Source of the DNA: Rugalucina vietnamica
Lineage: Eukaryota > Mollusca > Bivalvia > Lucinida > Lucinidae
Length of the DNA stretch: 64,000 nucleotides
Assembly: GCA_964017185.1 (NCBI GenBank)
Contig: OZ024870.1
Coordinates: forward strand, 35,604,139 to 35,668,138
Reading direction: 5' to 3'
Shown piece after piece: positions 19,743 through 57,757 of the stretch; the first letter of the stretch is position 1; every line of letters begins with the position of its first letter. The notes beneath the pieces were generated by a model. It was not told the DNA's origin, ran no database searches, and saw only the letters and a list, made by a program, of their open reading frames with translations. The position numbers and the translations under genes are program-made.

Positions 19743-20851
19743 ATACTGATTGGCTCAACAGAAGACCATGAAATCCCATCAACTGCAATATTGACAGAGT
19801 GGCAGTAAAGGCATTATGAAATAGCAAAAATGTTTATGAACAGAGGCCAGATGTCAACTAAATCAAACTTAAGCCAAACAATCCTCTACCAGATAATTCC
19901 CAAACTGTAATGTTGGACTATGGCATTCACAGCATTTTCATGTTGCCAAATTATTCATGAACGCCGGACAAATGCCAACTCAATCAAACTTAAGCCAAAA
20001 AATCCACCACCAGAACTGCGATGTTGGAGTATGGCATTCACAGCATTTTCATGTTGCCAAGTTATTCATGAACGCAGGACAAATGCCAACTCAATCAAAC
20101 TTAAGGCAAACAATCCACTAGCAGACAGTTTCGCCCAATTGTAAAGTTGCACTATGGCATTCACAGCATTTTCATGTTGCCAAGTTATTCATGAACGCAG
20201 GACAAATGCCAACCCAATCAAACTCAAGCCAAACAATCCACTACCAGATAATTCCCCAACTGTAATGTTGGACTATGTCATTCACAGCATTTTCATGTTG
20301 CCAAGTTATTTATGAACGCCGGACAAATGCCAACTCGATCAAACTTAAGCCAAACAATCCACTATCAGACAGTTTCGCCCAGCTGTAATGTTGGATTATG
20401 GCACTCTCAGCATTTTCATGTTGCCAAAATATTCATGAACGCCGGACAAATGCCAACTCGATCAAACTTAAGCCAGACAATCCACTACCAGACAGCTTTG
20501 CCCAAATGTGATATTGGACTATGGCATTCTCAGCATTTTGAAGTAGCTAAAATATTCATGAACCCTGGCCAGATGTTAACTCAATCAAATCCAAGGCAAA
20601 CAATCAACTACCAGGAAGTTTTGCCCAACTGTGATATTGGACTATGGCACTCTCAGCATTTTCATGTTGCCAAGTTATTCATGAACAAAGGACAGATGTC
20701 AACTCAATCAAATTTAAGCCAAACAATCAACTACCAGACAGTTTCGCCCAACTGTGATGTTGGACTATGGCATTCTCAGCATTTTGAAGTTGCCAAATTA
20801 TTCATGAACCCTGGACAGATGTCAATCCAATCAATTTCCAAACCGACTTGA
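19743..20851 (+). repeat. 123-bp (41-codon) repeat array A
   Basis: About nine units with the consensus codons LWHSQHFHVAKLFMNAGQM and TQSNLSQTI.YQTVLPNC. Units from 20312 to 20851 keep one frame (179 codons) and end MSIQSIPKQT-stop; the first units carry small indels. The leader (ACTGATTGGCTCAACAG) is identical to that at 26056. No homologue is recognised. It may be the repeat region of a decayed host gene or a satellite that happens to be open. Confidence 0.6.
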
Positions 20852-21572: not shown

Positions 21573-21819
21573 AAGAGGACCAATGGTCCTGTAAATGCTC
21601 ACCTGAGACCTGAGATATATAACAATAAACTTAGTTGACTAGAATAGTAATATACATGTATATAACCCCAGGGCAGGGTCAGAGCAAACCCTGGAGTCAA
21701 TTTCTTTTTCAAATCATAAAAATTCAGTCCATTTGCCAATTTATTTCAAGTTCTGCCCTTCATATGACATTTTAACATTTTTCCCCATTCAAATGCATGG
21801 GGCAACCTAAGCTGGGGCA
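21573..21819 (+). mobile_element. pearl/HINE-like element, truncated
   Basis: Left end GAGGACCAATGGTCCTGT and GCTCACCTGAGACC. It is cut off after GGGGCAACCTAAGCTG, where repeat-array sequence starts. The same cut is seen at 28437. Confidence 0.7.
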
Positions 21820-22192
21820 ACAATCCACTACCAGACGGTTTTGCTCAACTGTGATGTTGGACTATGGCACTCTCAGCATTTTCATGTTGCCAAGTTATTC
21901 ATGAACACGGGACAAATGCCAACTCAATCAAACTAAAGCCAAACAACCCACTACCAGACAGTTTCCCCAACTGTAATGTTGGACTATGGCACTCTCAGCA
22001 TTTTCATGTTGCAAAGTTATTCATGAACAAAGGACAGATGTCAACTCAATCAAATTTAAGCCAAATAATCAACTACCAGACAGTTTTGCCAACTGTAATG
22101 TTGGACTATGGCATTCTCAGCATTTTGAAGTTGCCAAATTATTCATGAACCCTGGACAGATGTCAATCCAATCAATTCCCAAACAGACTTGA
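21820..22192 (+). repeat. 123-bp (41-codon) repeat array B
   Basis: Three units. The last 207 bp are open (21986-22192) and end QSIPKQT-stop like array A. Confidence 0.6.
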
Positions 22193-26049: not shown

Positions 26050-27570
26050 AAAAATACTGATTGGCTCAACAGAAGACCATGAAATCCCATCAACTGCAAT
26101 ATTGACAGAGTGGCAGTAAAGGCATTATGACATAGCAAAAATGCTTATGAACAGAGGCCAGATGTCAAAAAAATCAAACTTAAGCCAAACAATCCACTAC
26201 TAGATGTTTCCCCATCTGTAATGTTGGACTATGGCATGCCCAACTGTAATGTTGGACTATGGCACTCTCAGCATTTTCATGTTGCCAAATTATTCATGAA
26301 CGCCGGACAAATGCCAACTCGATCAAACTTAAGCCAAACAATCCACTACCAGATAATTCCCCAACTGTAATGTTGGACTATGGCATTCACAGCATTTTCA
26401 TGTTACCAAATTATTCATGAACGCCGGACATTTAATGCCAATTCAATCAAACTTAAGCCAAACAATCCTCTACTAGATAATTCCCCAACTGTAATGTTGG
26501 ACTATGGCATTCATAGCATTTTCATGTTGCCAAACTATTCATGAACGCCGGACAAATGCCAATTCAATCAAACTTAAGCCAAACGATCCTCTACTAGATA
26601 ATTCCCCAACTGTAAGGTTGGACTATGGCACTCTCAGCATTTTCATGTTGCCAAGTTATTCATGAACGCGGGACAAATGCCAACTCAATCAAACTTAGGC
26701 CAAACAATCAATTACCAAACAGTTTTGCCCAACTGTAATAGTAGATTGTGGCACTCTCAGAATTTTGAAGTTTCTAAACTATTCATGAACGCCGGACAAA
26801 TGCAAACTCAATCAAACTTAAGCAAAACAATCCACTACCCGACAGTTTTGGCCAACTGTAATGTTGGACTATGGCACTCTCAGCATTTTCATGTTGCCAA
26901 GTTATTCATGAACGCTGGACAAATGCCAACTCAATCAAACTTAGGCCAAACAATCACTTACCAAACAGTTTTGCCCAACTGAAATAGTAGATTGTGGCAC
27001 TCTCAGAATTTTGAAGTTTCTAAACTATTCATGAACGCCGGACAAATGCAAACTCAATCAAACTTAAGCAAAACAATCCACTACCAGCCAGTTTTGCCCA
27101 ACTGTAAAGTTGGACTATGGCATTCACAGCATTTTCATATTGCCAAGTTATTCATGAACGCCGGACAAATGCCAACTCAATCAAACTTAAGCCAGACAAT
27201 CCACTACCAGACAGCTTTGCCCAACTGTGATATTGGACTATGGCACTCTCAGCATTTTGAAGTAGCTAAAATATTCATGAACCCTGGCCAGATGTTAACT
27301 CAATCAAATCCAAGGCAAACAATCAACTACCAGGAAGTTTTGCCCAACTGTGATATTGGACTATGGCACTCTCAGCATTTTCATGTTGCCAAGTTATTCA
27401 TGAACAAAGGACAGATGTCAACTCAATCAAACTTAAGCCAAACAATCAACTACCAGACAGTTTCGCCCAACTGTGATATTGGACTATGGCATTCTCAGCA
27501 TTTTGAAGTTGCCAAATTATTCATGAACCCTGGACAGATGTCAATCCAATCAATTCCCAAACAGACTTGA
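26050..27570 (+). repeat. 123-bp (41-codon) repeat array C, longest
   Basis: About twelve units after the ACTGATTGGCTCAACAG leader. Open frames run 26662-26982 (106 codons) and 26992-27570 (192 codons, ending QSIPKQT-stop). Two sub-types alternate near the end: HFHVAKLFMNKGQM and HFEVAKLFMNPGQM. Array and downstream flank duplicate those at 19743-21570. Confidence 0.65.
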
Positions 27571-28439: not shown

Positions 28440-28783
28440 GGCAACAATCCACTACCAGACGGTTTTGCTCAACAGTGATGTTGGACTATGGCACTCTCAG
28501 CATTTTCATGTTGCCAAGTTATTCATGAACACGGGACAAATGCCAACTCAATCAAACTTAAGCCAAACAATCCACTACCAGACAGTTTCGCCCAACTGTA
28601 ATGTTGGACTATGGCATGCCCAACTGTAATGTTGGCCTATGGCACTCTCAGCATTTTCATGTTGCCAAGTTATTCATGAACAAAGGACAGATGTCAACTC
28701 AATCAAATTTAAGCCAAATAATCAACTACCAGACAGTTTCGCCCAACTGTGATATTGGACTATCAATTCCAAAACAGACTTGA
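28440..28783 (+). repeat. 123-bp (41-codon) repeat array D
   Basis: About 2.5 units with an internal deletion. It ends with the same stop-containing tail as arrays A to C, slightly shortened. Confidence 0.55.
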
Positions 28784-35078: not shown

Positions 35079-35155
35079 TCACAATAAAATGAAGAGTATA
35101 ATGACTATGACTAAAATAAGAAGTAAAATTCCTATTGCACAACACTGTCGTTTAT
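35079..35155 (-). CDS. stx6: syntaxin-6 exon 8 (transmembrane anchor and stop)
   Basis: Acceptor TTTTTTTTCAG|ATAAA. 24 codons plus [23 protein letters not shown] then FILL, a single C-terminal membrane segment as in other tail-anchored SNAREs. Confidence 0.95.
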
Positions 35156-38100: not shown

Positions 38101-41100
38101 TTCCGTTTTTGGTCTGACACAGTATATTTCGGTTTGTTTTTGCCTATTTGGTTCTTTATTTTGACTGGTTTTTAATGCCGCAAATTATCTGCAATCTATC
38201 AATGTAAAATATTGTGAACCAGTCATCACAGTCGCCATTTTCATGACATCATAATCCAGCCCATACGTGGGTCTCAGGTTGACAAACTGGTTTAAATTGC
38301 TGCAGATACGCCAAAGTTGGATTTAAGATAGGTCATCACAAATCGTCATAAAAATCGCACCGGATGATTTTTTTCGCCCATTTGACATGGACTATATGTG
38401 AGACACAGTGGTAACAAGTTTTCTGACCAAGTCAACCCATTAGTGATGAAAGGACTCTCTCATTTGGATGAGTCCACTTTCCTTTATAGGGGAATCAGGA
38501 GTGGTTTTAAATGTTTATTCACTTTTTCTATGAAATTTCTCTAAGCAAACAGAATAGCCCCAGATGGGATGCCACATTCTGCGGCGTCACAACTGGGGCT
38601 ATTCTGTTTGCCTATGTCCCACTAAAAGGACGCCAATCTTATATCAGTTAAAGACAAATAGAATCCATCATGGGTGACCAGTGAAAATCCCAACCCGAGG
38701 GTCCACCCGTTCCAGTGGGAAACAAGGCTCGCCGAGTTTCCCACTGGAACGGTGGACCCTCGGGTTGGGATTTTCCTTTCTCCACTGGGCACCCATGATC
38801 GATTCTTTTTCTTACATACTCCGATTTTATCCTTTTACCGGTAATGTAACCTGGTACCGTGCTTTAACCCTTGTGACGTTGTGCATATTACGGATGTGAC
38901 GTCAAATGTAAATAAATCGTCAAAGTCAATAGTGATGTAGTTTTTATTTGTTTTTATTTTAAAACGAGCGTTATTCAAGAATACTCGCTGTGAAAAACAT
39001 CACTTTTGTCTAGTTTTGGTGAACGCCATTGCTGCAAGCTGTAGAAACGATCGAATTATATGATTATATCGCATGCTTTTCTTATCTTGCATGAGCAACC
39101 AAACCAGCAGTGTAAGATCGATTTATCTACCACCACTAAAATACCGGAATTTTTCTATCTTTATGTTAGAGGTATGCAAGAAAAGAAAGGTTACCATTTG
39201 ACATATGTAGAACTTTTGCCATTTTCTTCATCACATTATCCATCCTAGATTCTGTGTTTTCTATTTCATGGCCAAAATCATCTAACATTCTGAAAGAAAC
39301 AAATAAGCCTTGTTCATACATCTTAGGTGTCTCCAGTAAAAAGGATTTAATGGGTCTAGGGAGGGAACATTGTTCAAAGCTTTTTTTTTTTTTAATTTCT
39401 GATCGGAAACAAAATGACCTTAGAGCATGTTCCAACAAAGTGCATGCACAACTGCAATGAAACCAAGACTGATTTATGTTGACAGCATCCATCTTGCTTC
39501 GATTTATAGCAAAAAATTGCAGCAAACTAAATCAAGATGGACAATCACTTGACAAAAATCAATTAAAACTGAATGAAAATGCACTGGGTAAAGTGCACAT
39601 AAAGTGCACAGTACGCTCTAAACTGTTATACGTGGGCTCTATAATTTAATAGATTCCCCTGAGCAACTGGATTTAAAGTTATACACCGAAGTTGCTCGGG
39701 GTTATCTAGTAAACTAAAGCACGCATTATACTGACTGTTGTACAACAGTTTAGTGTGTATCATTCCATGGTATGTGCACTTTAGCCCATGAAATTTCATT
39801 CAGTTTTCAGAAAAATATAACCCATTTGCTAAATGGTTATGTCCAAATATTAGTATACAAAGGTCTATTTTAGTCACGTGATTATCCACCTTGTGAATAG
39901 GAACCTATATTTTTGCTCTATGCATTAGCAGTGTGAGAAATTGTAAAAATTTTTTGGGGGGTACAAAAACCAAGAATTATCTCCACCTATTTACATTTAG
40001 GACTGCTGTATACATGTGGTAATCCTGAGAAGCTAAATAGGGAGATTTCCATTTCCAATTAGGGAGAATACTTAACCCAAATTGGACGAATGGATTTTCC
40101 CATCATTATCATTTGAATGAGACCACTTTCATGTTTAGGGGCGTTAGGAGTGATTAGAATTTTTCTTCCATTTTTCGATGAAATTCCCTTAAGCAAATAG
40201 AATAGCATCAGATGGGACGCCGCGTTCTGCGGCGTCACATCTGGGGCTATTCTATTTGCCTATGTCCCATAAAAAGGACGCCAGGACAAAGAAGGATTTT
40301 TTTCATTTGAAGTAGGGAGATCCAAAATTCCAAATAGGGAGATGTATTAGATAAATATGGAAAATCTGAAATTCAGGGAGATCCCACCAAAATAGGAGGA
40401 TATCACATGTATGCTGCTGCCAAATCCATTTTTATACAATTTACATATGTACCTAATAATACAGTTTAACAGTTGGCCTAAATTACGTGTTCGTTTAAAA
40501 AAAAAAGACAGTTTTAGGCCTTTAGGGCCTTTTCCCATCTTATCCATAGAGATTCTTTAGGATTTAACAAGAAGAGGAATTGCAGGTACTGCACAGCTGA
40601 TCTATGTCTTTGTTTTCCCATTGTTGGTTTTCTTTTGTGAAGGCTCAAATGTGTTAATTCAGTCTTTAAATCAAGGCATAAAAACTACACTGTGGAAGGA
40701 CATTGCATTGTTGAACAGTTTTAAAGTTGGAATAAATTTACTCAACTCAACATTATCATACAGTACAGTCTGAGAGTTTTTTCACAAGCCCACTTACCCC
40801 CGCAGATGATTGTCCGCTCAAAATCCTACCACAAGATATTTAATCCCACCGCTGGTTGCAGCAGATCCTCCCTTAACCTGTCAGGTTTGGGGTGGGTTAA
40901 AGGTGTTAAAATAGTGATGTCTTATAACTGACAGGTGAAATAAACCATCATATTGGTAAAAGCGTAAAATTATTAACCTAGCGAAATATGTGTACTCCAT
41001 TTCATAGCAAAAGACTTGCAGTTGATAATGATTCACTTATCTACCATTTAATGTACATTTCTTACATATTAAATGTTTACTTCTTTTAAATAGTTTCATA

Positions 41101-50100: not shown

Positions 50101-53100
50101 CCCTGGGCAGGGCCCGTATGGACCCCAGGGGCACGGTTGGCAGGATTTATAAAGAGGACCACTATACATTGCTACACACAAAATATGAAAGCTTTGGGTC
50201 TTGTGGTTTCGGAGAAGAAGATTTTTTAAAGTTTTTCCCATGACGCCCCCAGGGCTGGGCCCGTATGGACCCCAGGGGCATGGTTGGCAGGATTTATAAA
50301 GAGGACCACTATACATTGCTACACACAAAATATGAAAGCTCTGGGCCTTGTGGTTTCGGAGAAGAAGATTTTTTTATGTTTTACCCATGACCCCCCCGGG
50401 GCAGGGCCCGTATGGACCCCAGGGGCACGGTTGGCAGGATTTATAAAGCGGACAACTATACATTGCTACACACAAAATATGAAAGCTCTGGGCCCGTATG
50501 GACCCCAGGGGCAGGTATGGCAGGATTAATGAAGAGGACCACTATACATTGCTACACACAAAATATGAAAGCTTTGGGTCTTGTGGTTTCGGAGAAGAAG
50601 ATTTTTTAAAGTTTTTCCCATGAGGCCCCCAGGGCTGGGCCCGTATGGACCCCAGGGGCATGGTTGGCAGGATTTATAAAGAGGACCACTATACATTGCT
50701 ACACACAAAATATGAAAGCTCTGGGCCTTGTGGTTTCGGAGAAGAAGATTTTTTTATGTTTTACCCATGACCCCCCCCCCGGGGCAGGGCCCGTATGGAC
50801 CCCAGGGGCACGGTTGGCAGGATTTATAAAGCGGACCACTATACATTGCTACACACAAAATATGAAAGCTCTGGGCCTTGTGGTTTCGGAGAAGAAGATT
50901 TTCTATGTTTTTCCAATTGTAAGTCTATGGGAGCTAATGACCCCCGGGGTGGAGTCATTTTTGACCCCAGGGGCACGATTGGCAGGATTTATAAAGAGGA
51001 CCACTATACATTGCTACACACAAAATATGAATGCTTTGGGTCTTGTGGTTTCGGAGAAGAAGATTTTTTATGTTTTTCCCATGACACGCCCGGGGTGGGG
51101 CCGTATGGACCCCAGGGGCACGGTTGGCAGGATTTATAAAGAGGACCACTATACATTGCTACTGACAAAATATGAAAGCTCTGGGCCTTGTGGTTTCGGA
51201 GAAGAAGATTTTTTATGTTTTTCCCATTGTAAGTCTACGGGAGCTAATGACCCCCGGGGCGGGGCCATTTTTGACCCCAGGGGCATGATTGGCAGGATTT
51301 ATATAGAGGACCACTAGACATTGCTACATACAAAATATGAAAGCTCTGGGCCTTGTGGTTTCAGAGAAGAAGATTTTTTTATATTTTCCCTATGACGCCC
51401 CTGGGGCAGGGCCCGTATGGACCCCAGGGGCAGGTATGGCAGGATTAATGAAGAGGACCACTAGACATTGCTACACACAAAATATGAAAGCTCTTGGCCT
51501 TGTGGTTTCAGAGAAGAAGATTTTTATGTTTTTCCCATTGTAAGTCTATGGGAGCTATCCGTTGCCATGGAAACCAGAGTTCTGATCCGACCTGGCCCAA
51601 AACCTATTGCAACCTTTCCCCCTCCTCAATGATGCTTTAGATAAAATTTGGTCACGATTGGCCTTGTTGTCTTAGAGATATTCAAGTTTGAAAATGTGGA
51701 CGGACGGACGGACGCCGGCTCGACAACTATACTATAAGCTCACCTTGTGAGCCTTCGGCTCAGGTGAGCTAAAAAACCCTCGACTGTACTGTATATATGT
51801 TTACTGATAGGGGAATAGAGTGAAGCATGAGTGTTAGTCTACAGAGACTCACTTGCCTCCAGCAACAGGGACAACATTTGAGTCGCAAGAAAACCGGCTT
51901 CAGCGTTTCCGACCAGGTCCGACTGAAACCTGCCTGCACAGTCAAAGAAACAAGCTTGAAATTCCGGATTTCAGAAGAAGATGGACTACAGAAAACAAAA
52001 GCGCTGATCAGCTGTGCAGTTACTGCCTTTTTTCTTTGTTTTCACATAGGCCAAAATCCTGTTCTCATGACGAGGCTCATTTATGCATTATTTGAGCAGA
52101 TCTAGAACAAATTTCAACAAATACAGGATATGGCTATATGACTGGTATTCCTAGCTGATGCAATACAGGAATTGATATATCTCTGTAGCAGAAACAAAGG
52201 TGCTGGTCAGCTGTGCAGTTACTGAGAAGCTGATCAGTGCCTCTATTGAGATTGTAAATTTGCCATGCTTTAAAATCTTCACTACTGATCGGTTGTACTC
52301 ACATATTTTGTTCCTCTAACTCATTGCCTATTTGATGACTCATATTCTTCAGCACTCCTACACTGGTGCCTATCTTGTCAAGATGGTCATCTTGGTCTTT
52401 TATAATCAGCTACAAACAAAATATGATGAGAATTGGGTATTTGAAAAGTGGACAAGATATGAGAATCCAGACACTTGAGTAGTCTAACTTGAGTACACTG
52501 TATTACTATTCTAACAAGAAAAGGAAGAGTCTTAAATAGGACACAGACTGTTTTTCTTCTACAACTTGACTGATACAAAGTTCACTGCTCATATTAATGT
52601 GTGTGTTTCTTTTCAGTTGGGACATTTGTGAGAGGTGATTACATAAAATGAAAAATATCTCATCTGAACTTGAACCTCAAGCTGTCTGTGGCTGTGAATG
52701 AGCAATAGCTGGTCAGGACTGAAATTCAACACTTCAAAGAATATAATATGATGTTTGAAAAATGTCTAAACTTCTTGATATAGGATTATGTAATCATTTG
52801 TAAGGGATACCTTTTGATGTTGTGATGTATCATCTATAAAACTTTGGTGGGATCTTTCCATCTCTGTGTCTAGACGAGTATATTTGTCATACTTGTTGGG
52901 ACTAGAGGAGTTCAGAAGGGACTGAAAGAAAGCAATGGTGGCAGCACATTTGCGCACATTTTTGAAAGAATGTGGTTCATTTGCGCACACAATTTTCCCA
53001 GGTAAACGTTTTCATTTGCGCACACAATTTCCCAAGGAAAATGTTACATTTGCGCACATCAAATTTTCTCCGGTTAATGGTATGTTTGCGCTCGCGGGTC

Positions 53101-56100
53101 TGTATAGTCAAGCCAAATGGAACGTTTTAAAACAAATCCTGGAAAACTAGGAATTTTATATGAAGTTTTTAGATTCAGAAAAGAAACAGACTATAAGGCG
53201 GTACACTTGTGGTGATATAAAGAAAATTTGCAAACCCAGCTAAATGATACAATGAATCTTTGAAGGAGATTCGAACCTGACCACATGGAAGAAGAGTCCA
53301 GGGCTGCGACCACTGAAACTCTTCACAGGCCGGTGAACAGGGGTAACAGTGATGATACTTTATTTGTAGTACCTTGATTTAATAAACTACCAGCAGCTGG
53401 CCAAGGAAGAGGCGTAAAAACATGTGCGCAAATGTAACAGTAAAACTGTGCGCAAATGATATACATTTCTGTGCGCAAATGAAAACTGTGCGCAAACGAA
53501 ACTTTTGAAAAATGTGCGCAAATGTAATAGCACCAAAGCAATTTATATATGCCTTCGCATGAGAAAACCAACAATTTGGGTGTCTGACCAGGTCTGACAC
53601 AAACTGGCCTGTACAGCCACAGAAGCAGACTAGAAGCTTGAAATTACGGATTTATGAAGAAGAGGGCTTGTACTATCCGTGTAGCGAAAAACAAGACTAA
53701 TCAGCTGTGCACTTAAAGCACAGCTGATCTGCGACTTTGTTTTTGCCTATGTATGTTGTTGGTTTCCTAATGTGAAAGCTCATATGTAAAGCTAAGCAAC
53801 TGAATGACCAGTGTTCAAACAATACATGACTACATGTTGCCTCATCAATTAAAATGGGATGTTCTGCATTTAAATATTATATGTTTTCTTCAAAAATGAA
53901 AAGAGAAACACACTCCAAAACATGAATTTCTTACTACCTTCTTTGGCTACAAAAGCTTTCTAATAGAGAAACTATATCATTCAACTGGTTACATAATAAG
54001 GTGCCTCCATAGTCAGCAATAAACCGAGAAACAGATCTGAAGGTATATATCCATGTTCCTGGCTTCAAACTCCACTAAGCACATTCAGAAACTCACCTGT
54101 CTTACATTAGATTCTTCTTTAGCTATAGATGGTGGGCTGGTCATATGTGACTTCAAACTCCACAGAGCACATACAGAAACTCACCTGTCTTACATTAGAT
54201 TCTTCTTTAGCTATAGAAGGTGGGCTGGTCATGTGTGACTTCAAACTCCACAGAGCACATACAGAAACTCACCTGTCTTACATTAGATTCTTCTTTAGCT
54301 ATAGGCGGTGGGCTGGTCATGTGTGACTTCAAACTCCACAGAGCACATACAGAAACTCACCTGTCTTACATTAGATTCTTCTTTAGCTATAGATGGTGGG
54401 CTGGTCAAACTCCACAGAGCACATACAGAAACTCACCTGTCTTACATTAGATTCTTCTTTAGCTATAGATGGTGGGCTGGTCAAACTCCACAGAGCACAT
54501 ACAGAAACTCACCTGTCTTACATTAGATTCTTCTTTAGCTATAGATGGTGGGCTGGTCAAACTCCACAGAGCACATATAGAAACTCACCTGTCTTACATT
54601 AGATTCTTCTTTAGCTATAGATGGTGGGCTGGTCAAACTCCACAGAGCACATACAGAAACTCACCTCTTACATTAGATTCTTCTTTAGCTATAGACGATG
54701 GGCTGGTCATGTGTGACTTCAAACTCCACAGAGCACATACAGAAACTCACCTGTCTTACATTAGATTCTTCTTTAGCTATAGACGGTGGGCTGGTCATAT
54801 GTGACTTCAAACTCCACAGAGCACATACAGAAACTCACGTCTTACATTAGATTCTTCTTTAGCTATAACGGTGGGCTGGTCATGTGTGACTTCAAACTCC
54901 ACAGAGCACATACAGAAACTCACGTCTTACATTAGATTCTTCTTTAGCTATAGACGATGGGCTGGTCATGTGTGACTTCAAACTCCACTAAGCACATACA
55001 GAAACTCACCTGTCTTACATTAGATTCTTCTTTAGCTATAGACAGTGGGCTGGTCATGTGTGACTTCAAACTCCACAGAGCACATACAGAAACTTACCTG
55101 TCTTACATAAGATTCTTCTTTAGCTATAGACGGTGGGCTGGTCATGTGTGACTTCAAACTCAACAGAGCACATACAGAAACTCACCTGTCTTACATTAGA
55201 TTCTTCTTTAGCTATAGAAGGTGGGCTGGTCATGTGTGACTTCAAACTCCACAGAGCACATACAGAAACTCACCTGTCTTACATTAGATTCTTCTTTAGC
55301 TATAGACGATGGGCTGGTCAAACTCCACAGAGCACATACAGAAACTCACCTGTCTTACATTAGATTCTTCTTTAGCTATAGACGATGGGCTGGTCAAACT
55401 CCAAAGAGCACATACAGAAACTCACCTGTCTTACATTAGATTCTTCTTTAGCTATATACAGTGGGCTGGTCATGTGTGACTTCAAACTCCACAGAGCACA
55501 TACAGAAACTCACCTGTCTTACATTAGATTCTTCTTTAGCTACAGACGGTGGGCTGGTCATGTGTGACTTCAAACTCCACAGAGCACATACAGAAACTTA
55601 CCTGTCTTACATTAGATTCTTCTTTAGCTATAGACGATGGGCTGGTCAAACTCCACAGAGCACATACAGAAACTCACCTGTCTTACATTAGATTCTTCTT
55701 TAGCTATAGATGGTGGGCTGGTCAAACTCCACAGAGCACATACAGAAACTCACCTGTCTTACATTAGATTCTTCTTTAGCTATATACAGTGGGCTGGTCA
55801 TATGTGACTTCAAACTCAACAGAGCACATACAGAAACTTACCTGTCTTACATTAGATTCTTCTTTAGCTATAGACGGTGGGCTGGTCATATGTGACTTCA
55901 TATCCTGAATATAGAATACAGATAGGTGAAAATGAAGAAAACAGATGTATAAAGCCTAAAGGTGGCAAGAAATCAAGAAAATCAACATGGTTTCCCAACA
56001 GGTCCGACACAAACCGAGCTGTACAAGCACAGAAGATGGCTAGAGGCTGGAAATTTTGGATTTAGAAAGAAGAGGAATTGCACTATCTATTAGCGAAAAC

Positions 56101-57757
56101 TGATCCACCCCTTTTGTTTTCACACATGCAAAATGTTGTGTTTTCTCATGATGAGGCTCATATATACATGTAGTTTTCTAGCTCTAAGATATTTAAATAT
56201 TAAAACTTTGCTAAGTCAAGCATATCGTATGCCACTAAGTTTCTCCATATCTTTGCATCTTAAAACTGGAAAGAGACTATTTTCAGACTAAATAAACAGG
56301 GATAATTTTGGAAGGGGCCCTGTGCTATAAGGCCCATAAAGTTTCAAAAAGGCCCCTTCTATAGAAAGGTGTGGGCCCTTTTCACAATGTAACTGTAAAG
56401 GGAGTTGTTATCTTGGCCCAAAAATTCCAATGAAATTTCTCAAAAAGGCATGTCATGTTTGCTCAACAGTTTTATCCCTGAATAAAGAGTTAGACAGACA
56501 CTTTGCATCCCATGATAGGCAACACATTATGACAAGATGTCTTGCTAATTAATCATAAACTTACCCTTACTGCAACTTTTGTTCTCTCTATAAAACTTCT
56601 TCTATCTTGAAGTTCTGAAATGTCTATCTTGAACTTTTTGGGATTTCTTTCTACAATACTTGGAATCAGTTAAAGAAACAAGTCATCATGGAATATACAT
56701 GTAGTATGTAAAAGGACGTCTCTGATAATTTACAACAAAAATGTCATATTTAGTGAACTATTTCAGCTTATTAACACTTATCATCTGGCATTTGAAAGCT
56801 ACAGGATACAACTTGAATTTTTAGAGGCATTCCAAAAGCTAAGCTCGTTCCACTTGTTGGTCTTGCATTGATCCCAAGTGAGCATTGATCCCAAGTGAGC
56901 ACAATAAGTCTCGGTCTTGCATAAAAGTGTGGGCATTTATGCACCAGTCATTTGTAACCACTGCCTACCTACGGAGAAGGGTGGGGAGTGCAGGGCACTG
57001 TCCTCTGACTCCTCTCAGTGCAGGGAAAATGACAGGGTTTTGACATTAGGATCCTTACCACAGAGAGATTTTCTTAATCTATTGCGAAGGGCGGGGCAAA
57101 GAGCAAAGTTCCGACCCCTAGTTTGCCCCCCAGGGGGGGGGGAAGGGGGGGGGAGGGGGGGAGGGGGGGCATTAATAATAAAACAGGGTCAACCAGATAA
57201 GAATGTATAAAATGGAATGCTGCCTGATGCTATTTCGCTATCATTCTTAAGTTTTTCTATCATTAATTACAAGGCTGAAGTTATGCAATTCCATTGTAAA
57301 ATTGACAAATCTATAATTGAAAGGCAGCAGCTGAAATGGTCAACTCTATTTGAGCCGTGTCATGAGAAAAGCAACAATTTGGTTTCCAATTAGGTCTAAC
57401 ACAAACCAAACTGTACAAGCAAAAAAAAAGATGGCTAAATTTTGGATATAGAAATTAGAGAATTTATGTACTATCTGTGTAGCAAAAACAAAGGGGCTGA
57501 TAACCTTCTGTGCCTTTCTTTTCACATATGCAGAATGCTGGTTTTCTCATGATGCTGCACATTTATTTGATTCACAATGAAGGATATCAACTGTTTCTTC
57601 CAGGTCTTCAAGATCCCATTCTATACTGCGTAGACTGTTCCTCAGCTCGTTCGTTGTCCAGTCATACTCTTCCTTCGATACTGAACCAGGCTGCTCAGCT
57701 AGCTCGCACCATCGGGAATACAGGTTTCTGGCTGTTTGAAGGGCCTTCTGGACTTCA
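35079..57757 (-). CDS. stx6: syntaxin-6 (Qc-SNARE), exons 2 to 8
   Basis: Syntaxin-6 is a tail-anchored Qc-SNARE of the trans-Golgi network and endosomes that pairs with partner SNAREs to fuse vesicles. Seven exons are visible (57757-57588, 56658-56565, 55904-55842, 52921-52811, 52409-52303, 39289-39195, 35155-35079), about 239 residues against about 255 in human. Exon 2 holds the N-terminal helical domain ([20 protein letters not shown]); exons 6 and 7 the SNARE helix with the zero-layer Gln in NELEEQN and [15 protein letters not shown]; exon 8 the transmembrane anchor. All junctions keep frame except the exon 2/3 one, which looks U12-type. Exon 1 (about 11 codons, MS.EDPFFVVKG in relatives) was not found. 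Introns are 929, 660, 2920, 401, 13013 and 4039 bp. No break is visible, so the gene is probably functional. Confidence 0.97.
35279..36475 (+). mobile_element. pearl/HINE-like element with damaged right end
   Basis: Left end GACGACCAATGGTCCTGAT; two to three core units; right end reduced to AGCATGGGTATAGTATAAGG without the hairpin. A foldback MITE is inserted near its left end. Confidence 0.65.
35337..35582. mobile_element. foldback MITE (CTGGGCCCAGTTGTTCAAA type)
   Basis: The ends CTGGGCCCAGTTGTTCAAA and TTTGAACAACTGGGTCC are inverted, with TAACGA repeats inside. The centre is a perfect palindrome of about 98 bp, arms ACAAATACACTGTTATTTTT and so on, meeting at CTTTGCAGTGCAAAG. Confidence 0.85.
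36551..38077 (+). mobile_element. pearl/HINE-like element with three core units, in syntaxin-6 intron 7
   Basis: Left end GAGGACCAATGGTCCTGT and GCTCACCTGAGACC; right end GACGGACGACGACGGACGG, CTCACCTGTGAGCC-TTCG-GGCTCAGGTGAGCT. Complete and antisense to the gene. Confidence 0.8.
38078..38454. other. intron DNA without recognised feature
   Basis: AT-rich DNA in syntaxin-6 intron 7. Nothing recognisable was seen. Confidence 0.3.
38455..38632 (+). mobile_element. small MITE with hairpin, copy 1
   Basis: Hairpin AACAGAATAGCCCCAGATGG / CAACTGGGGCTATTCTGTTT followed by GCCTATGTCCCACTAAAAGG. The same block occurs at 40098-40277. Confidence 0.6.
38668..38797. repeat. long near-perfect hairpin
   Basis: Arms of about 45-60 bp: AAAATCCCAACCCGAGGGTC, CACCCGTTCCAGTGGGAAAC, then a 12-nt loop AAGGCTCGCCGA, then the reverse complement. 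Outer ends CATGGGTG / CACCCATG. A foldback insertion. Confidence 0.75.
39195..39289 (-). CDS. stx6: syntaxin-6 exon 7 (second part of SNARE motif)
   Basis: Acceptor TTTCTTTCAG|AATG, donor AAATG|GTAACC. It codes [20 protein letters not shown] then [11 protein letters not shown]. Confidence 0.96.
39565..39807. mobile_element. MITE with 34-bp imperfect inverted ends
   Basis: Left AAAACTGAATGAAAATGCAC, GGGTAAAGTGCAC; right is the reverse of AAAACTGAATGAAATTTCAT, GGGCTAAAGTGCAC. 243 bp, no coding capacity. Confidence 0.65.
40098..40277 (+). mobile_element. small MITE with hairpin, copy 2
   Basis: As at 38455: AATAGAATAGCATCAGATGG / CATCTGGGGCTATTCTATTT, GCCTATGTCCCATAAAAAGG. Confidence 0.6.
40560..40652 (-). 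mobile_element. TGAGCC-type MITE, right-end fragment
   Basis: GAAGAGGAATTGCAGGTACT, a decayed hairpin, CCCATTGTTGGTTTTC and GAAGGCTCA. Confidence 0.5.
40653..41871. other. intron DNA without recognised feature
   Basis: AT-rich DNA in syntaxin-6 intron 6. No gene or clear repeat was seen. Confidence 0.3.
41925..44550 (+). mobile_element. 2.6-kb element with 0.6-kb inverted ends and a reverse-transcriptase fragment inside
   Basis: The outer ends CAGGTGCATTCAGTTATTAA and its reverse lie between TATA copies (41921-41924 and 44551-44554); the uninterrupted family-P sequence has one TATA here. Inverted arms run about 41925-42527 and 43949-44550. The middle (about 42690-43420) codes a decayed reverse-transcriptase tail, [20 protein letters not shown] and [28 protein letters not shown], of the type found in Penelope-like or related elements of aquatic invertebrates. 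Whether the RT belongs to the inverted-arm element or was inserted into it is not clear. Confidence 0.7.
44667..46013 (+). mobile_element. pearl/HINE-like element inside family-P copy 5
   Basis: Left end GAGGACCAATGGTCCTAT; right end with GGACGATGGACGGACAGACG and a shortened hairpin AGCTCACCTCAGGTGAGCT. Three core units. Confidence 0.75.
46096..46617. other. intron DNA without recognised feature
   Basis: AT-rich DNA. Nothing was seen. Confidence 0.3.
46618..46921 (+). mobile_element. foldback MITE, family P, copy 6
   Basis: CATCAGGAAAACATGTCCGTG at left, GGGCAAGTTTTCGTAATG at right. Core ACATTGTGGGTACTAGTTAG, then AACCACCTCGGAGAGGTGGTT, then GTACCCACAATGTATG. The loop contains an extra AACCACCTCGGCAAGGTG copy. 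Confidence 0.8.
46922..48006. other. intron DNA with a fragment of the sushi-locus spacer
   Basis: At about 47085-47215 lies a diverged copy of the spacer found between repeat arrays and sushi exons at 21100-21230 and 27740-27880 (AAAGTCTGGCGTTCATTGCC, TTCATTACCCGAAATTG, TACTGCTTCCAAA). The rest shows nothing recognisable. Confidence 0.45.
48007..48243 (-). mobile_element. TGAGCC-type MITE, copy in intron 6
   Basis: TGAGCCTGTGCATGACAAAA at left and CACGCACAGGCTCA at right, between CA dinucleotides. A perfect hairpin GATCAGCTTCGCGG-TTA-CCGCGAAGCTGATC lies near the right end, so its orientation is opposite to the copies at 28.9-34.9 kb. Confidence 0.8.
48485..48677. mobile_element. TA-flanked MITE (Tc1/pogo-like ends)
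   Basis: Ends CACCTGGACCTCTTTATGAC and reverse CACCTCAACCTCTTTATAAC, flanked by TA. 189 bp between the TAs. Internal CACGG and TTATAACACGGAC repeats. Confidence 0.75.
48678..49242. other. intron DNA without recognised feature
   Basis: AT-rich DNA with a short hairpin GCCCCCTCTGAGGGGGC at about 49222. Nothing else was seen. Confidence 0.3.
49243..51775 (+). mobile_element. pearl/HINE-like element with a 147-bp tandem core, in syntaxin-6 intron 6
   Basis: Left end CAACGATCGCTCACCTGAG (the palindrome has become GTAGCCCAAGGGCAACG); right end GGACGGACGGACGCCGGCTC, GTGAGCC-TTCG-GGCTCAGGTGAGCT. The core is about 13 units spaced mostly 147 bp (TTGGCAGGATTTATAAAG at 49986, 50139, 50286, 50433, 50666, 50816 and so on). 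The many open frames on both strands are a product of the repeat, whose 147-bp period is a multiple of three. Confidence 0.8.
51879..52079 (-). mobile_element. TGAGCC-type MITE, decayed
   Basis: TGAGTCGCAAGAAAACCGGC at left and CATGACGAGGCTCA at right. The hairpin is largely lost. Confidence 0.65.
52303..52409 (-). CDS. stx6: syntaxin-6 exon 6 (first part of SNARE motif)
   Basis: Acceptor TTTGTAG|CTG, donor AATAT|GTGAGT. It codes [35 protein letters not shown], with the zero-layer Gln. Confidence 0.95.
52811..52921 (-). CDS. stx6: syntaxin-6 exon 5
   Basis: Acceptor TTTCTTTCAG|TCC, donor CAAAAG|GTATCC. 37 codons with [20 protein letters not shown], the stretch just before the SNARE helix. 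A foldback element lies 24 bp upstream of its acceptor. Confidence 0.94.
52946..53525. mobile_element. 580-bp element with arrays of CATTTGCGCACA at both ends
   Basis: Inverted ends of about 20 bp, ACATTTGCGCACATTTTT(G/C)AAA. The motif CATTTGCGCACA occurs four times in the first 110 bp and, reversed, five times in the last 110 bp. It has no transposase. Multiple subterminal motif copies are typical of transposase-binding sites in hAT-like and related DNA elements. It lies 24 bp upstream of syntaxin-6 exon 5. Confidence 0.75.
53263..53333 (-). ncRNA. tRNA-like SINE head or tRNA relic
   Basis: On the minus strand GAGTTTCAGTGGTCGCAGCC resembles an A-box region and CAGGTTCGAATCTCC contains a perfect B box, about 40 nt apart. 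It lies inside the 52946-53525 element. No cloverleaf was established. Confidence 0.4.
53550..53782 (-). mobile_element. TGAGCC-type MITE in intron 4
   Basis: GCATGAGAAAACCAACAATT at left, TAATGTGAAAGCTCA at right. Hairpin AATCAGCTGTGCAC-TTA-AAGCACAGCTGATC near the right end. Confidence 0.75.
54062..55904 (-). repeat. 88/76-bp minisatellite made of syntaxin-6 exon 4 plus its 5' splice site
   Basis: 22 copies of a unit that, on the minus strand, runs through exon-4 coding sequence ([11 protein letters not shown]), the donor ACAG|GTGAGT, and about 30 bp of intron (TTTCTGTATGTGCTCTGTGG). Spacing between copies is 88 bp, or 76 bp in eight intervals where 12 bp (AAGTCACACATG, minus strand) are missing; three further intervals are 85-86 bp. 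19 of the 22 copies keep ACAG|GTRAGT. Only the copy at 55842-55904 has the complete exon start and acceptor. Confidence 0.93.
55842..55904 (-). CDS. stx6: syntaxin-6 exon 4, source of the 22-copy array
   Basis: Acceptor CTATATTCAG|GATATG, donor AGACAG|GTAAGTTT. 63 bp, 21 codons, phase 0 at both ends, reading [10 protein letters not shown] then [11 protein letters not shown]. It aligns with the DMKDQMS...AERKNRQ linker of human syntaxin-6. It is the only copy with the complete 5' end and acceptor; 21 partial copies follow in the transcribed direction. Confidence 0.93.
55985..56160 (-). mobile_element. TGAGCC-type MITE, left end lost, in intron 3
   Basis: Body TCCGACACAAACCGAGCTGT, AAGAGGAATTGCACTATCT, right end TTCTCATGATGAGGCTCA. 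The hairpin is reduced. Confidence 0.6.
56161..56564. other. syntaxin-6 intron 3 DNA
   Basis: Nothing recognisable besides plain intron sequence. Confidence 0.3.
56565..56658 (-). CDS. stx6: syntaxin-6 exon 3
   Basis: Codes [17 protein letters not shown] then [14 protein letters not shown] and ends AGG|GTAAGTTT. The 5' edge is uncertain by one or two bases: the sequence reads TTCTTTAACTGATTCCAAG|T, and a U12-type branch-like motif TTCTTTAAC lies 10-12 nt before the exon. Confidence 0.92.
56659..57350. other. syntaxin-6 intron 2 DNA with a MITE-end fragment
   Basis: At about 56934-56975 lies TTATGCACCAGTCATTTGTAACCACTGCC-like sequence matching the left end of the MITE at 61773. G-rich runs lie at about 57130-57170. 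Confidence 0.45.
57351..57562 (-). mobile_element. TGAGCC-type MITE, decayed, next to exon 2
   Basis: TGAGCCGTGTCATGAGAAAA at left and GGTTTTCTCATGATG at right; the hairpin is lost. It ends about 25 bp from the exon 2 5' splice site. Confidence 0.65.
57588..57757 (-). CDS. stx6: syntaxin-6 exon 2 (N-terminal helical domain)
   Basis: Acceptor ATATTTCAG|TGAAGTCC. 170 bp coding [17 protein letters not shown] onward to DLEDLEETV. It starts in phase 2, matching the usual GG|T glycine codon of the exon 1/2 junction in relatives. The end reads ACAGTTG|ATATCCTTC; no GT donor nearby keeps frame. Confidence 0.93.

Follow-up and report, generated by a model that had tools for sequence, protein, structure and literature searches.

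Splice-site repeats in lancelets and humans

Tandem repeats that run over exon-intron boundaries have been described in amphioxus globin genes, with Adh3 cited as a further case, and were named mirages (PMC3087553); a mirage in troponin C and similar repeats in PGBD5 have been added to these (PMC3902484). RT-PCR in amphioxus suggests that mirages leave regular splicing undisturbed (PMC3087553, PMC3902484), and they have been put forward as a source of introns (PMC3087553). In humans, a VNTR of ABCA7 has a 25-bp unit, starts at the exon-18 donor, and runs from about 12 to 427 copies (PMC5954066). Two frameshifting events are reported for it, at 14 ± 6 and 2 ± 1%, the second of which appears to be the retention of a single unit; longer arrays go with less expression and more exon 19 skipping, and alternative transcripts are abundant in many brain samples (PMC5954066). 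The 31-bp VNTR of human CBS, c.1444_1467+7(16_21), comprises by its name 24 nt of exon and 7 nt of intron in 16–21 copies (PMC2630376).

The array that we consider runs from the 3′ part of exon 4 into intron 4 of a gene in the window (the whole stretch of 64,000 nucleotides that was analyzed). Like the ABCA7 intron-18 VNTR, it carries a donor in each tandem unit and starts at the real donor. The amphioxus mirages (Adh3, the globins BflGb6 and BflGb9, and troponin C, with PGBD5 similar) resemble it in being minisatellite-like, in spanning a boundary, and in multiplying splice signals.

The syntaxin-6 gene and its 22-copy array

By its sequence, the host gene is syntaxin-6 (STX6/10/61), as the initial annotation had proposed. 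In a tblastn search with human syntaxin-6, exons 2, 3, 5, 6, 7, and 8 were matched along the minus strand in gene order; exon 4 had no match in that search, being too short or too divergent. Together with splice-site reading, these matches order the exons from 57757 to 35079 on the minus strand, the first exon lying outside the set located: exon 2 (57588–57757, 3′ boundary uncertain), exon 3 (56565–56658), exon 4 (55842–55904), exon 5 as the next exon beyond the array (52811–52921), exon 6 (52303–52409), exon 7 with part of the SNARE region (39195–39289, its 3′ end set by frame, one base past the computed 39196), and exon 8 with the membrane anchor and stop (35079–35155). Intron 6 is ~13 kb long. 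Besides this exon order, both expected domains were found. The N-terminal family PF09177 (STX6_10_61_N) has one match at E ≤ 0.001 among the matches listed for the 1.09-Gb genome, and it falls on this gene (E = 5.3e-16); the SNARE domain is present in joined exons 6–8. The protein of joined exons 2-3-4 aligns to the solved Syntaxin-10 (E = 1.3e-36) and Syntaxin-6 (E = 9.6e-34), an alignment that extends only to residue 8 of exon 4. Because the last 13 residues of this exon, which are most of the coding part of the repeat unit, are without a homology match, exon 4 is called on its splice sites, its frame (63 nt, phase 0/0, with the real acceptor tatattcag preceding it), and its length of 21 codons, the same as in the human counterpart.

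Intron 2 (window 57588–56659) starts with ATATCCTT and carries TTTCTTTAACT close to its end, and it resembles a U12-type intron; none of the standard end pairs considered preserves the frame. Other repeats occur in the window as arrays with units of ~122–151 bp at 19836–20834, 21819–22175, 26237–27553, and 28466–28763. In two of these, open frames encode a 41-residue repeat (..NCDIGLWHSQHFHVAKLFMNAGQMPTQSNLSQTIHYQTVSP..), and the blocks lie ~6.7 kb apart and resemble a segmental duplication.

Exon 4 is itself copy 1 of the array, and 21 more copies follow head to tail downstream, inside intron 4. Tandem Repeats Finder places the array at 54063–55900 on the minus strand (period 88, 22.1 copies, 92% matches) with TGAAG at each end, and 22 donor-bearing copies can be counted, in agreement with the copy number and position first given. 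Each copy holds the 3′ part of exon 4, the 5′ splice site, and 29 nt of intron 4, so that the 88-bp unit, with 59 nt of exon, is two thirds exon. The tandem units thus straddle the splice site, and the array adjoins an authentic exon 4 that retains its own acceptor and donor. In eight of the 22 copies, the unit is a 76-bp variant, which lacks 12 bp of the 88-bp unit between two TGA triplets. The initial annotation was right about this loss of 12 bp, but its point about the coding frame makes no difference; both unit lengths, 88 and 76, equal 1 mod 3, so the frame changes from one copy to the next in either case.

Donor 1, CAG/GTAAGT (55836–55844, minus strand, boundary 55842/55841), is the expected functional 5′ splice site. 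Donors 2–22 occupy 54091–55756 on the same strand, with the first intron base at 55753, 55677, 55601, 55513, 55425, 55349, 55273, 55185, 55097, 55009, and 54923 for donors 2–12 and at 54838, 54750, 54664, 54588, 54512, 54436, 54360, 54272, 54184, and 54096 for donors 13–22; the spacings are 88, 76, 86, and 85 bp. A perfect CAG/GTRAGT is found in 19/22 donors across 1.8 kb, the same number that had been noted as intact, and the damaged ones (donors 12, 13, and 15 at 54923, 54838, and 54664) have lost two bases right before the GT.

The origin of the unit can be read directly from the DNA. Exon 4 contains ...ataTGAAGtcac, and the intron past the last copy contains ...gttTGAAGccagg; the 88-bp unit spans one TGAAG to the next, which points to tandem duplication between two 5-bp matches. 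The intron-side TGAAG (54063–54067, minus strand) is the probable join of the first duplication, and its exon-side partner lies at 55896–55900. A duplication between the TGAAG in exon 4 and the TGAAG starting 30 nt into intron 4 would have copied the 3′ part of exon 4 together with its donor and the beginning of intron 4, after which slippage or unequal exchange could have grown the array to 22 copies. A 12-bp deletion between two TGA repeats would have given rise to the 76-bp variant, which would have spread as well. With gaps excluded, pairwise identity between copies averages 96.4% (minimum 90.9%), and variants shared by several copies are, as judged by eye, dispersed over them, a pattern of homogenized copies that is expected under slippage or unequal exchange. 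The proposal that the unit arose from exon 4 and its donor thus agrees with the sequence and with the two TGAAG ends, and the array probably arose as a side effect of DNA repeat expansion.

Splicing outcomes and competing readings

We think it likely that the array is a mirage in the amphioxus sense, a minisatellite seeded at an exon-intron boundary in which copy 1 is spliced normally and the array does little. Joining the acceptor of exon 4 to donor 1 would give the normal 63-nt exon, with the other 21 copies leaving with the intron, and the gene would tolerate the array because copy 1 keeps an intact donor behind a good acceptor. No acceptor in the array region scores better than that of exon 4, consistent with the earlier identification of copy 1 as the real exon. 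This acceptor scores 7.6, compared with 2.1 for the best internal AG of the in-frame type and 5.2 for the best single internal site. The matrix was built from 24 acceptors of this genome (median 8.1), 18 of them chosen by eye at other loci, and it is coarse, given that the lowest of these real acceptors scores −2.6. Cassette exons made through internal acceptors were considered and set aside on these poor scores (best in-frame 2.1 versus the median of 8.1). As judged from the DNA, normal splicing of copy 1 at donor 1 is most likely. The earlier suggestion that adjacent copies sit too near each other to be spliced together is plausible.

The initial annotation had suggested that later donors might provide alternative lengths of the linker. 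The reading frame speaks against this. An exon that begins at the acceptor of exon 4 and ends at one of donors 2–22 contains an in-frame stop at nt 127–129 in 21/21 cases, which speaks for rejecting linker-length variants made in this way and is not what a coding exon duplication with longer protein variants would show. A protein-level role of the array has no support. Spill to a later donor would instead bring the stop into the transcript, which would most likely be degraded, and some transcript loss might follow, maybe dependent on array length; a small amount of spill and effects of length are possible. The sequence itself does not force the use of donor 1, as later donors pair with U1 just as strongly: the computed pairing energy with the U1 end is −12.1 kcal/mol for donor 1 (GTAAGT) and −12.2 kcal/mol for the majority form (GTGAGT).

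Substitutions in the 22 copies give no signal of selection on the donors, the exon, donor, and intron parts varying equally. Substituted cells number 25 (2.2%) in the exon part, 4 (2.1%) in the donor, and 9 (1.8%) in the rest of the intron part, figures that omit indels, including the 2-base losses that damage donors 12, 13, and 15. This equality is no sign that either donors or coding sequence are guarded, and the many intact donors are what recent homogenized copies would display anyway. No excess RNA structure was found in about two units (z = +1.9). The array is most likely neutral.

The alternative that survives best is that the array tunes syntaxin-6 output. Transcripts would spill to later donors or skip a neighboring exon, as in ABCA7, with array length setting the loss, and the products would carry stops or lose an exon. 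This explanation is compatible with the same origin and differs only in effect. In its favor, greater length of the ABCA7 VNTR is accompanied by reduced expression and increased skipping of exon 19, all nineteen perfect donors have equal U1 pairing, spill-over would yield a stop in every one of the 21 cases, and exon 4, at 63 nt and phase 0/0, could be skipped without loss of frame. However, the donors are preserved no better than the rest of the unit, and the amphioxus papers report regular splicing. We regard tuning as doubtful; given the length and expression effects in ABCA7 and its abundant alternative transcripts, the statement that the syntaxin-6 array does little may be too weak.

Far less probable is the idea that the donor cluster serves as a landing pad for U1. 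Binding of U1 may aid transcription or protect from early polyadenylation, and 19 perfect U1 sites in 1.8 kb ahead of long later introns (intron 6 above all) would suit either purpose, but the donor-specific conservation that might accompany such a role is absent. An equally improbable alternative is that the copy number is an artefact of assembly. Tandem arrays are often mis-sized, and a 301-base array probe found just this one place: all 10 of its 10 genome matches fall inside the syntaxin-6 array, and no dispersed copies of the unit were found genome-wide, the best candidates having been scored. Yet the copies are not identical and their variants are dispersed among them, the array sits inside one 83-Mb contig, and similar arrays occur at other loci. 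The copy number given here is that of one haplotype.

Least probable of all is that copies are spliced in through a GAAG/TCA acceptor as additional in-frame 54-nt exons (18 residues), lengthening the pre-SNARE linker. The 88-bp copies do have an open frame in the right phase, GAAG/TCAC is present 13 times in the array, and skipping a neighboring copy would make introns of >100 nt. However, the acceptor is weak (best 2.1 against a real median of 8.1, albeit with a lowest real score of −2.6 in a small matrix) and the site is missing from all eight 76-bp copies.

Donor arrays across the genome and their relation to known systems

The initial annotation had treated the array as a single curiosity. 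A genome-wide search for three CAGGTRAGT at 64–125-bp spacing instead lists at least 36 loci with three or more perfect donors, at least 22 in the shorter gap range and at least 14 more in the longer, and arrays of this class are already in print. At gaps of 55–85, the same motif written backward (TGARTGGAC) gave 7 loci (45/45 rows listed) versus the at least 22 donor-motif loci; at gaps of 86–116, the donor motif gave 213 hits and the backward motif 24, these being hits rather than loci. The excess is suggestive of enrichment over chance and goes no further than that, because genuine donors raise the frequency of the motif, and the correction available from the window is too thin, with one instance each of the donor and the backward motif outside the array. 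By a rough estimate on assumed numbers, arrays born at random would be expected to span donors in ~70 cases, taking ~175,000 donors of which a tenth are perfect and the 3 other arrays with 64–125-bp units in the window, all of one family. With such a number expected by chance, a donor-directed mechanism is not needed.

Of the 36 listed loci, 24 were examined. They were partly selected, the first eight having been chosen as coding-looking rows, which inflates the fraction of 20/24 (syntaxin-6 included) in which copy 1 forms the 3′ end of what looks like an exon with an open reading frame. The acceptors were chosen visually, and 4/20 of the arrays have more than one open frame; locus L061 is without an acceptor and looks like a first exon, and the apparent exon of L044 has only 9 codons. 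At the remaining four (L036, L042, L043, and L058), no exon was seen by eye. An exon with a recognizable homologue was found at 10/24 loci: beside syntaxin-6, these are AP-1 mu (L050, 4.3e-20), SMARCD (L054, 9.5e-17), UNC80 (L048, 9.1e-18), a DEAH helicase (L046, 2.4e-14, with no Pfam match), a calcineurin-B-homologous/EF-hand protein (L045, 3.5e-12), and, by Pfam, a UPF0020 methyltransferase (L040) and RPAP1 (L056), both over the cut-off, PGAP1 (L055), barely over it, and a P-loop NTPase (L060). For the other 14/24, either no homologue was found or it was weak, as with the sulfatase match of L041 (E = 0.002). L047, L049, L051, L052, L057, L059, and L061 matched no Pfam family at E ≤ 1 (L044 and L053 were outside this search), and no solved homologue was found for L049 or L051. 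The idea that L057 is SAC1-like was not supported.

In 19/20 anchored arrays, with the frame chosen, a stop lies within 4–84 nt past donor 1, and in L044 it lies at 197 nt. In L040 and L041 the stop comes just beyond donor 2, so that use of donor 2 alone would change the frame but add a unit free of stops. Exon makes up more than half of the unit in 17/20 anchored arrays, a share in which junction matches are scored as exon and which anchoring itself favors. The apparently similar architecture at 19 further loci argues for a general mutational process and not for a function in syntaxin-6.

Several of these loci have features of their own. The 53-bp exon-plus-donor array of L041 (C9:1232737) recurs at C9:1314307–1317129, C9:1418536–1421358, and C9:1612486–1619276, and once at C10:8487387; two of the C9 blocks have their units in mirrored order, like inverted duplicates, and this array may have traveled with gene duplications. 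L052 (C17:6490300–6492700) and L053 (C17:7223000–7225400) have near-identical exons ~0.73 Mb apart with the same donor array, in 5 and 3 perfect donors, respectively. In L045, L049, L050, L052, L053, and L054, the donor and intron after the last copy differ from those within the unit, and the unit donor and native donor are thus not the same sequence. A dense array at C6:28892037–28893741 has units of ~35 bp in which a pyrimidine-rich stretch precedes a terminal CATTACAG/GTAAGT; each unit thus resembles an acceptor fused to a donor.

It is conceivable, although we lean against it, that arrays over donors arise repeatedly in this genome as a mutational class linked to the 5′ splice site, and that this class also offers tests of donor choice and a reservoir for intron birth. 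Under this joint claim, exon would make up most of each unit, one end of which would fall within the donor or directly behind it, as if the arrays were seeded by donor-like microhomology or by an event at a transcribed donor. If it is true, the arrays test how the spliceosome chooses one among 3–36 near-identical donors. Each array is in any case a ready-made experiment in donor choice, with several near-identical strong donors and a single acceptor, in which the wrong choice is often penalized by a stop. The arrays also exemplify the type of duplication proposed as an origin of new introns (PMC3087553). For annotators, predicted extra exons within donor arrays may be false.

A 30.7-kb mitochondrial contig (L062, contig C47) carries COX1. 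The match includes nine TGA codons and, when read with the invertebrate code, forms a single long open frame (with mechanical frames on the opposite strand). This reading is as expected for an invertebrate mitochondrion and is compatible with a bivalve, without proving one. Upstream of COX1 lies a frame that reads like COX2 followed by a long unusual extension, both labels being given by reading.

Overall, the syntaxin-6 array is a member of the known mirage kind. It has 22 copies compared with the 6 and 3 of the two amphioxus BflGb6 haplotypes, and it differs from the amphioxus cases in coming from what is probably another phylum and from one genome with apparently similar arrays at 20 loci. 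The unit of the human ABCA7 VNTR is 25 bp, begins at the GT, and is intronic, whereas the syntaxin-6 unit is 88 bp with 59/88 exon; use of the second donor in ABCA7 adds one unit and shifts the frame (PMC5954066). By analogy with that VNTR, decoy-U1 and allele-length effects of such arrays are possible. The CBS VNTR, going by its name, shares the exon-plus-donor design with the syntaxin-6 array in a unit that is shorter and is polymorphic in the population. It is reportedly linked to reduced CBS activity, as a 2001 title by Lievers has it. For molluscs or bivalves, the literature searches made turned up nothing relevant to such arrays, and the apparent abundance of donor arrays in one genome may be new. 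The interest of the syntaxin-6 array lies in the class that it opens, of apparently many genes with rows of strong donors behind a single acceptor, and about twenty such arrays in one genome would turn the few lancelet and human cases into a countable class.
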